DNA of 64,000 nt from Sutcliffiella horikoshii (GTDB taxonomy: Bacteria; Bacillota; Bacilli; Bacillales; Bacillaceae_I), in NCBI RefSeq assembly GCF_002157855.1, contig NZ_CP020880.1, positions 3,286,001 through 3,350,000 of the forward strand, read 5' to 3'. Positions 8,302 to 54,283 of the stretch are shown piece after piece. A program made the position numbers and the translations under genes. The notes under the pieces were generated by a model, which ran no database searches, had not been told where the DNA came from, and saw nothing but the letters and a program-made list of their open reading frames with translations. The stretch's first letter is position 1. Every line of letters starts with the position of its first letter.

Positions 8302-8430
8302 GCTGTTGATTTCCGCAAATGGCTTCGCTTTCCGCGGGGCGACCTTGAGCCTCCTCACAACGCTTCAGGGGTCTCAACAATGTCGCTTCTTCCCCCGCAG
8401 GAGTCTTCGCCTTTTGCTCCAATCAACAGC
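8302..8430 (+). repeat. Palindromic repeat element, copy 2
   Basis: Perfect 10-bp terminal inverted repeat GCTGTTGATT (8302-8311) / AATCAACAGC (8421-8430). Inside lie CTTCGCTTTCCGCGGGG, TTGAGCCTCCTC, GGGGTCTCAA and CCCCGCAGGAGTC. The arm GCAAATGGC faces GCCTTTTGC (one mismatch). Sits between the convergent nadK and ytcJ. Confidence 0.9.
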
Positions 8431-20806: not shown

Positions 20807-20817
20807 CTAGTTAGACC

Positions 20818-20943
20818 GTTCCTTTTCGCTGCAGGCACTCGCTTTCCGCGGGGCGACCTTGAGCCTCCTCACTTCGTTGCGGGGTCTCAACATTGTCGCT
20901 ATTCCCCCGCTGGAGTCGAGTGCCTTCCGCTCCAATCCACTAA
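20818..20943 (+). repeat. Palindromic repeat element, copy 3
   Basis: Family blocks CTCGCTTTCCGCGGGG, TTGAGCCTCCTC, GGGGTCTCAA and CCCCGCTGGAGTCGAG. Its variable arms differ from the other copies but pair with each other: GGCACTCG on the left and CGAGTGCC on the right, a perfect 8-bp match. Lies between convergent ytsP and the methionine gamma-lyase-like gene. Confidence 0.9.
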
Positions 20944-22287: not shown

Positions 22288-22416
22288 GCTGTTCCTTTCC
22301 GCAAATGGCTGCGCTTTCCGCGGGACGGTGCTTGAGCCTCCTCGGCTTCGCCTGTAGGGTCTCAAGCTACCGTTATTCCCCCGCAGGAGTCTTCGCCATT
22401 TGCTCCAATCCACAGC
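22288..22416 (+). repeat. Palindromic repeat element, copy 4
   Basis: Ends GCTGT / ACAGC. Arms GCAAATGGC (left) and GCCATTTGC (right) are perfect complements; GCGGGA / CCCGC and TTGAG / CTCAA pair further in. Forms a head-to-head pair with copy 5. Confidence 0.9.
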
Positions 22417-22502: not shown

Positions 22503-22632
22503 TTGTTGATTGGAGTGGAAGGCGCGTAGACGCCCGTGGGAGGAAGGGACAGGTGAGACCCCGGAAGGCGAAGCCTGGGGAGACTCACGGACCGCCCGCA
22601 GGCAAGCGAAGCCCCTGGAACGGAATCAACAG
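22503..22632 (-). repeat. Palindromic repeat element, copy 5 (reverse orientation)
   Basis: Same family on the other strand: ends TTGTTGATT / AATCAACAGG, blocks GGGGTCTCACC and GGCTTCGC. Its GTGAG / CTCAC inner pair replaces TTGAG / CTCAA of other copies, another compensated change. Confidence 0.85.
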
Positions 22633-22656
22633 GATTTTATACTTTCTTAACTTTTA

Positions 22657-27302: not shown

Positions 27303-28815
<1,513 letters not shown>

Positions 28816-28949
28816 GCCTATTTGTACTACTTATTCCTGTCTTAGCACATTCTATAACTAATCAAAAATTTATATAAAGTCTTTTTACCATAAAAAAGCG
28901 TATCATGTCAACTGAAAGATTAAGAAAATTTTGGAAGAAAACAAAAAGT

Positions 28950-39768: not shown

Positions 39769-39960
39769 CCCAGTTTCCTTTCGTTGCAGGTGGTCGCTTT
39801 CCGCGGGACGGTGCTTGAGCCTCCTCGGTTTCTCCTGTGGGGTCTCAATCTACCGTTACTCCCCCGCAGGACAAGGAAAGCTCCGCAGCAATTCATCGCA
39901 CGAAGAAAATGCGTTAGCATTTTCGAGGAGTCTCCCACCTTCCACGCCAGTCAACTGGGG
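39769..39960 (+). repeat. Palindromic repeat element, copy 6 (long form)
   Basis: Ends CCCAGTT (39769-39775) / AACTGGG (39953-39959). Arms GGTGG / CCACC. Has the extra hairpin module GAAAATGC-GTTA-GCATTTTC. Located between ccpA and motP. Confidence 0.9.
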
Positions 39961-45109: not shown

Positions 45110-45236
45110 GCTGTTGATTTCCGCAAATGGCTTCGCTTTCCGCGGGGCGACCTTGAGCCTCCTCACAACGCTTCAGGGGTCTCAACATTGTCGCTACTCC
45201 CCCGCTGGAGTCTTCGCTTTTGCTCCAATCTACAGC
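45110..45236 (+). repeat. Palindromic repeat element, copy 7
   Basis: Nearly identical to copy 2: starts GCTGTTGATT, ends AATCTACAGC, blocks CTTCGCTTTCCGCGGGG, TTGAGCCTCCTC, GGGGTCTCAA, CCCCGCTGGAGTC. Sits between ytxH and ytxJ. Confidence 0.9.
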
Positions 45237-47760: not shown

Positions 47761-47946
47761 GCTGTTCCTTTCCGCGAATGGCTGCGCTTTCCACGGGGCG
47801 ACCTTGAGCCTCCTCGGCAAGCCTGCGGGGTCTCAACATTGCCGCTACTTCCCCGTAGGACAAGGAAGGCTTCGAAAGCGATACTTCGCACGAAGAAAAT
47901 GTGTAGCATTTTCGAGGAGTCTCCGCCATATGCTCCAATACACAGC
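47761..47946 (+). repeat. Palindromic repeat element, copy 8 (long form)
   Basis: Ends GCTGT / ACAGC. Has the extra module with GAAAATG / CATTTTC. Central blocks TTGAGCCTCCTC and GGGGTCTCAA. Head-to-head with copy 9. Confidence 0.88.
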
Positions 47947-48026: not shown

Positions 48027-48095
48027 TTGTTAATTGGAGTGGAAGGCGCGCAGACGCCCGCAGGCAAGCGAAGCGCCTGGAACGGAAATCAACAA
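48027..48095 (-). repeat. Palindromic repeat element, copy 9 (reverse, internally deleted)
   Basis: Only the two ends of the element remain (69 bp): TTGTTAATTGGAGTGG... and ...GGAACGGAAATCAACAA, with perfect arms AGGCGC / GCGCCT. The whole central GGGGTCTCAA region is missing. Confidence 0.85.
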
Positions 48096-54153: not shown

Positions 54154-54283
54154 CCAGTTTCCTTGCGTTTCAGGTGTTCGCTTTCCGCGGGAAGGTGATT
54201 GAGCCTCCTCACAACACTTCAGGGGTCTCAACCAACCTTTTCTCCCCCGCTGGAGTCTCACACCTTGCACTTCAGTCAACTGG
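54154..54283 (+). repeat. Palindromic repeat element, copy 10
   Basis: Ends CCAGTT / AACTGG; arms GGTGT / ACACC; blocks TTCGCTTTCCGCGGG, TTGAGCCTCCTC (GATTGAG...), GGGGTCTCAA, CCCCGCTGGAGTC. Between ytpR and ytpQ; the termini match copy 6. Confidence 0.9.

Follow-up and report, generated by a model that had tools for sequence, protein, structure and literature searches.

A dispersed family of near-palindromic DNA hairpins with variable but complementary arms in Sutcliffiella horikoshii and other Bacillaceae

The window analysed here, a stretch of 64,000 nucleotides of Sutcliffiella horikoshii (contig NZ_CP020880.1, positions 3,286,001 to 3,350,000), contains ten places that are members of one repeat family, an almost self-complementary DNA hairpin of about 130 bp. 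A preliminary description of the window had proposed a ten-copy family with fixed sequence blocks, which is borne out here: the block CGCTTTCCGCGGG is present at eight of the ten places with at most one mismatch, against 0.02 expected in shuffled sequences, and the arm pairs named in that description can be read at the listed copies. On the plus strand lie copy 1 (2253–2437), copy 2 (8302–8430, type A), copy 3 (20816–20940, the copy cited at the outset, with arms GGCACTCG/CGAGTGCC), copy 4 (22288–22416), copy 6 (39769–39959), copy 7 (45110–45236, type A), copy 8 (47761–47946) and copy 10 (54154–54283, with arms GGTGT/ACACC), while copy 5 (22503–22633) and copy 9 (48027–48095) are found on the minus strand. 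Four parts of the initial account had to be amended. First, an element does lie at copy 3, but its tightest bounds are those given above and not 20818–20943. Second, the ten copies are not all alike, since copies 5 and 9 belong to subtype B and lack the exact block, copy 9 having moreover lost its middle by deletion. Third, they are not all separate, copies 4 and 5, as well as copies 8 and 9, being the A and B halves of convergent pairs rather than independent singles. Fourth, copies 1, 6 and 8 each hold an extra plus-strand insert of 58–59 nt, hereafter the D insert (2352–2410, 59 nt; 39872–39929, 58 nt; and 47861–47918, 58 nt, respectively). The location between genes also stands, in that the copies lie outside the main genes of the window (list of open reading frames, inspected by eye); some overlap short, spurious-looking ORFs and, in a wider set of 174 parsed copies, three fall inside an ORF call.

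The family extends far beyond the window. The union of several pattern and model searches gives at least 240 distinct places in the S. horikoshii genome (a lower bound, neighbours less than 150 bp apart being merged), of which the strict pattern recovers 50, while a covariance model (R1) returns at least 150 matches. All 18 genomes of a genus- and family-level sample, S. horikoshii included, have matches (51 to at least 150 each), and a cross-genus model (R2, E-value up to 1e-6) finds the family in 91 of the 120 genomes sampled from the order and in 56 of 73 genera, with a highest per-genome count of at least 28. A pattern scan retrieved at least 118 stretches, mostly from Bacillaceae genera (e.g., Neobacillus, Priestia, Halobacillus and Oceanobacillus), Pisciglobus being the outlier among the matches listed. 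With one copy as the query, three of 72,556 plasmid records matched, all from Priestia, and no phage did. At the gathering score, a scan of the window against Rfam returned only a T-box leader (28620–28852, minus strand, upstream of the ORF 27303–28607) and nothing for the hairpin family, whereas copies 3 to 5 gave chance-level matches only (E-value up to 10). As no curated model matched, a known Rfam structured RNA was rejected as the identity of the element.

Comparing insertion sites between relatives, as had been advised, revealed both empty sites and replacements by variants. Among the 12 relatives shown for copy 3, the syntenic place is without an element in four (G009, G010, G011, G017), five (G007, G008, G012, G014, G015) have a composite of an A and a B copy at a slightly shifted place, and three (G005, G006, G016) a single reversed copy. 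Among the eight relatives shown for copies 4 and 5, the whole composite is missing from G007, G009, G012, G014, G015 and G016, the site is filled in G008, and the apparent start of a reversed copy is visible in G010 at the edge of the printed stretch. Copies 1 and 7 are missing from G007, and copies 8 and 9 from both G009 and G007, their place being taken by a tandem array (in G009, a 52-bp unit repeated 4.8 times, L273 13865–14116; similar units in G007). Since counterparts of copies 1, 2, 6, 7 and 10 occupy the same sites in G009, many insertions are old. Altogether, the elements either move or can be replaced. At the compared sites, no target-site duplication was established for the element itself, and its edges are blurred by the divergence of the flanks, whose matches in G009 are about 84–99% alike. 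In a distant genus (G062, L395–L422), visual inspection suggests that the element is part of a longer unit bounded by outer inverted repeats (GGCTGTTTTCG...TTGTTGC).

Among the 174 parsed copies, 44 pairs are convergent A+B composites with a common linker, and the composite is one among the repeated units in this genus, oriented relative to replication. The genes dnaA and dnaN lie at the contig start (by eye), but a dif consensus had no match in the genome with three mismatches allowed, so that the boundary between replichores was fitted to the matches themselves, the switch falling near 2.01 Mb; when strands are shuffled, the same fit reaches at most 98 of 150 matches in the genome polarity, against 125 of 150 in the real data. 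All but one of the 44 composites have their A half directed towards the origin (43/44), irrespective of gene direction: in the 42 with both flanking genes called, this holds for 11/11 between convergent genes, 2/2 between divergent genes, 8/8 among lagging-strand genes and 20/21 among leading-strand genes. Solitary copies of subtypes A and C follow the genome polarity in 61 cases out of 85, and those between co-directional genes are opposite to the genes in 45 out of 60. The polarity of the best 150 matches recurs in G009 (121/150). In G062, which belongs to another family, it is absent (74/132 among the matches listed, for a shuffled mean of 75.6), which rejects replication polarity as a universal trait of the repeat; the polarity thus belongs to this lineage or to the composite and does not extend to the family at large. 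Finally, a hairpin resembling a terminator flanks the composite beyond B in 26 of the 44 cases and beyond A in eight, the corresponding counts being 0/44 and 1/44 in a control that consisted only of base-shuffled flanks.

Inverted doublets oriented relative to the replication fork recall REPIN/RAYT systems, and a single RAYT-like gene might mobilise the 44 composites. The genome does encode one Y1 transposase (L031 1273–1965, minus strand; gene at C1:4006055), which scores 77.8 bits against the NCBIfam model of the REP-associated tyrosine transposase, below the cut-off of 80. However, a fuzzy search for four element motifs in 3336 bp around this gene gave scattered weak matches and no copy, and the hairpins are several times the length of a REP. 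Across the sample of the order, the element is somewhat commoner in genomes with a Y1_Tnp domain (PF01797; 82/102) than in those without (9/18), yet the nine genomes that have the element but not the domain hold 15 to at least 28 matches each. The association is therefore weak and Y1_Tnp is not needed, which, together with the lack of an adjoining copy, weakens RAYT as the mobiliser. A true REPIN/RAYT system is accordingly unlikely in our eyes, and the RAYT-like transposase is a candidate mobiliser only.

On one strand, the element forms a long hairpin whose internal loops are fixed (TCC/TCC and TTCGCT versus TCT, plus a one-base bulge) and whose apex is a stem-loop. From the outside inwards, an outer stem is followed by the TCC/TCC loop, a middle arm, the large loop (TTCGCT versus TCT), the TCCGCGGG/CCCGC.GGA stem with its bulge, a variable core stem and, at the apex, the GAG.CTCC/GGGG.CTC stem with its loop. 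Five strands, including both strands of copy 3, were folded alongside 200 shuffles each. As DNA, four of them beat all the shuffles, whereas the B-type copy 5 showed no gain (z -0.48; 61 shuffles doing as well); as RNA, all five beat at least 199 of 200 (z -2.9 to -6.7). Column conservation is uneven along the hairpin: the middle arm (0.37–0.68 in most columns) and the outer stem (0.47–0.86) vary, the TCC loop is intermediate (0.75–0.89), and the unpaired bases of the large loop are constant (TCGCT, 0.97–1.0; TC, 0.97), level with the core and apical stems (0.94–1.0; core stem, 0.95–1.0); the unpaired core columns are variable. Such constancy of unpaired bases argues for selection on the folded form and points to recognition of a folded shape with its large loop, a step that we infer.

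The arms had been described as complementary within each copy, and this was recovered by three approaches, albeit weakly for subtype B in the first of them. When the 5' arms of 166 of the 174 parsed copies (eight being dropped for missing anchors) were paired either with their own 3' arms or with 3' arms swapped within the subtype, own arms paired better in subtype A (-21.56 versus -18.49 kcal/mol, n = 97, 0/10000 permutations) and in subtype C (-19.55 versus -11.75 kcal/mol, n = 25, 0/10000 permutations), while the difference was weak in subtype B (-18.09 versus -17.77 kcal/mol, n = 44, 266/10000 permutations); the 3' arm of one or more copies (L019 among them) is misplaced, which biases against this result. 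Some copies pair poorly (L002, L181, L186), one of which, L186 (near genome position 264799), has arms resembling two different subtypes and is a probable recombinant. In an alignment of 62 copies from 53 sources across genera, which was fitted to the structure and for which the shuffles ignore relatedness, both sides change at 30 of 40 pairs; cells with a double change number 401, for 108.6 in shuffles, and 93.1% of cells are paired, for 74.3% in shuffles (41–50% for slid structures). None of 500 shuffles reached any of these values. Covariation thus exceeds both shuffled and slid controls, and the arm-swap and ortholog tests are independent of the structure-fitted alignment.

For the ortholog test, 109 of the 174 copies had a flank match in the fetched part of G009, 94 of them on both flanks, and 85 could be aligned, the other nine comprising four empty-site entries and five rejected on identity (75%), gaps (12) or lookup. 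Over these 85 orthologous copies (91% mean identity between the two genomes), 93 double changes were counted among 3449 pairs, for 14.7 expected, and 66 of them keep a Watson–Crick pair (permutation mean 6.1, maximum 14), while pairing is lost through single changes in 190 cases and through double changes in 24. Of the 85 copies, 30 have one compensated pair or more. Within the window, the G007 ortholog of copy 2 differs by one compensated change in the outer arm and by one mismatch, and that of copy 10 reads GGGGT/ACCCC. Some changes are solitary, such as the outer-arm double changes of L174 (pair 23–109, six differences in total) and L020 (pair 18–110, nine in total). In L018, L175 and L182, by contrast, many pairs change jointly and the copy now resembles another variant, which is replacement or conversion by a whole variant. 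Compensation and exchange therefore both occur. This bears on the earlier suggestion that the fold is either under selection or copied as a unit, for both halves are partly true: the covariation above controls (weak for subtype B) and the constant loops speak for selection, while the wholesale swaps show that copying or conversion contributes.

We consider it probable that these repeats form a non-autonomous, mobile, REP/MITE-like family of near-palindromic DNA hairpins, for which an enzyme would be supplied in trans, and whose arms would be kept paired by selection on the hairpin form together with conversion. The substrate of this putative enzyme would be the hairpin itself, probably as single-stranded DNA at the replication fork or as an extruded cruciform, and selection on that substrate, along with conversion between copies, could let the arms drift in sequence while staying complementary. 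Three other accounts of the paired arms seem to us slightly less credible than the REPIN/RAYT system considered above. According to the first, variants arose once and were then redistributed by homologous recombination only; in several copies, identical core pairs do alternate between identical states, and entire arms were swapped at fixed sites (L018, L175 and L182), but the lone outer-arm changes of L174 and L020 lie among scattered single differences, and three outer-stem pairs show all six standard pair types across genera, which leaves this account little likelihood. According to the second, template-switch correction of quasi-palindromes during replication maintains complementarity without selection, in line with the 13 of 85 orthologous copies that have exactly one pairing-preserving double change; as such a process would yield perfect palindromes, the internal loops should vanish, yet the large loop stays non-complementary across genera (0.89–1.0 in most columns), so that mutation alone is quite improbable. 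According to the third, the element is a structured RNA (a regulator, an mRNA stabiliser or a processing site) selected copy by copy, its dispersal being incidental. The strong covariation, the constant internal-loop bases and the retention of two T–G pairs in 60/62 and 62/62 rows (a wobble on the written strand, an A–C mismatch on the other) would suit an RNA, but its many genomic places, its presence polymorphism between species, the absence of an Rfam match, the solitary A and C copies that oppose co-directional genes and an orientation of composites that tracks replication, not transcription, make this account rather implausible. As for simple arm correction or one recent burst, they explain the pattern poorly, the latter being incompatible with 85 orthologs at 91% mean identity and with matches in 56 of 73 genera.

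Read as a mobile DNA hairpin, the family has several counterparts. REP, BIME and REPIN elements are likewise high-copy extragenic palindromes that occur as inverted doublets, undergo compensatory changes and serve as targets for insertion sequences (IS): inverted doublets and compensatory changes are reported in PMC3116915, and REP elements are described as targets of five IS families, IS1182 not being among those named there, in PMC1525189. The present element differs from REPs, given as 20–40 bp long in PMC3733652, in being a hairpin of about 130 nt with fixed internal loops, in a sequence partly conserved across genera and in that no link to the RAYT gene was found. The 74-bp Bhal-1 repeat of B. 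halodurans (36 copies, intergenic, predicted to fold; PMC2267715) may be a fragment of this hairpin family, judging from its description only. Our search by sequence string returned unrelated papers only, and that by topic none recognisable as describing the hairpin family; as coverage was partial, we do not claim its absence from print. Other likenesses are also by description only. BOX elements of S. pneumoniae are modular, structured intergenic repeats, as is the present family. In Bacillaceae of the B. cereus group, bcr1 and further MITE-like repeats are intergenic, foldable and mobile, and are alike in these respects; bcr1 is named in PMC3733652 and PMC2267715. A structured repeat present in many copies in many Bacillaceae genera, for which neither an Rfam match nor a name was found, would be a Gram-positive counterpart of REP/BIME; it also supplies compensated natural variants of a single hairpin by the hundred.

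The hairpins are landing or docking sites for other mobile DNA. The insertion sequence of S. horikoshii, identified as a member of the IS1182 family (NF033551, 358.9 bits for a cut-off of 270), is present in five almost identical copies (L214, L215, L219, L227, L235), all of which sit in the apical loops of different elements, with about 8–9 bp of the loop duplicated. Upstream of its transposase, the IS contains an entire A-type element, and its ends are unlike those of the element, as seen when the latter was considered as a MITE of this IS. IS1272 belongs near IS1182. IS1272 picks stem-loops and replaces them, and a path that duplicates just the loop is drawn as well (PMC5678879), whereas the IS1182-family copies of S. 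horikoshii keep their target hairpin and duplicate part of its loop. At 58% identity or more, nine IS1182-family matches were found in the 18 genomes, six of which lie in an apical loop by their flanks (the five above and one in G010). Seven of eight matches at 34–35% identity (all but L433) were inspected, and none has an element motif. In addition, an IS1182-like end is found in an element loop at L323.

The second guest is the D insert, which is made of two hairpins and lies inside an element in all 23 pattern matches. Its left junction follows GGA in 22 of them, that side being deleted in the remaining one (L327), and its orientation follows the genome polarity in 21. Since the orthologs of copy 6 in G009 and G007 are without it, copy 6 probably acquired its D insert at its present site, the other reading being that the insert came by local conversion from another copy. 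Under the mobile-hairpin reading, the hairpins would act as gene-free landing pads for the IS1182-family IS (apical loop, for the copies of S. horikoshii) and for the D insert, found only inside hairpins. A bolder version, which we hold to be possible but too tentative to favour, is that the hairpin serves as an address for structure-guided transposition, pointing to the origin, spreading through single strands at the fork and hosting two site-specific parasites, i.e., a 58–59 nt insert that would home to one internal loop and be among the smallest mobile DNAs proposed, and an apical-loop IS1182-family IS with its own complete hairpin. The near-perfect orientation of composites in one genus, the nested insertions and the variants make mobility dependent on single strands or cruciforms testable in culturable bacteria. 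The three other IS1182-family matches at 58% identity or more lie elsewhere: two copies in G002 (L427, L431) occupy the 3' half of an element, not its apical loop, and the third, in G011 (L426), is bordered by a 9-bp repeat and sits in the loop of a hairpin that resembles a terminator.
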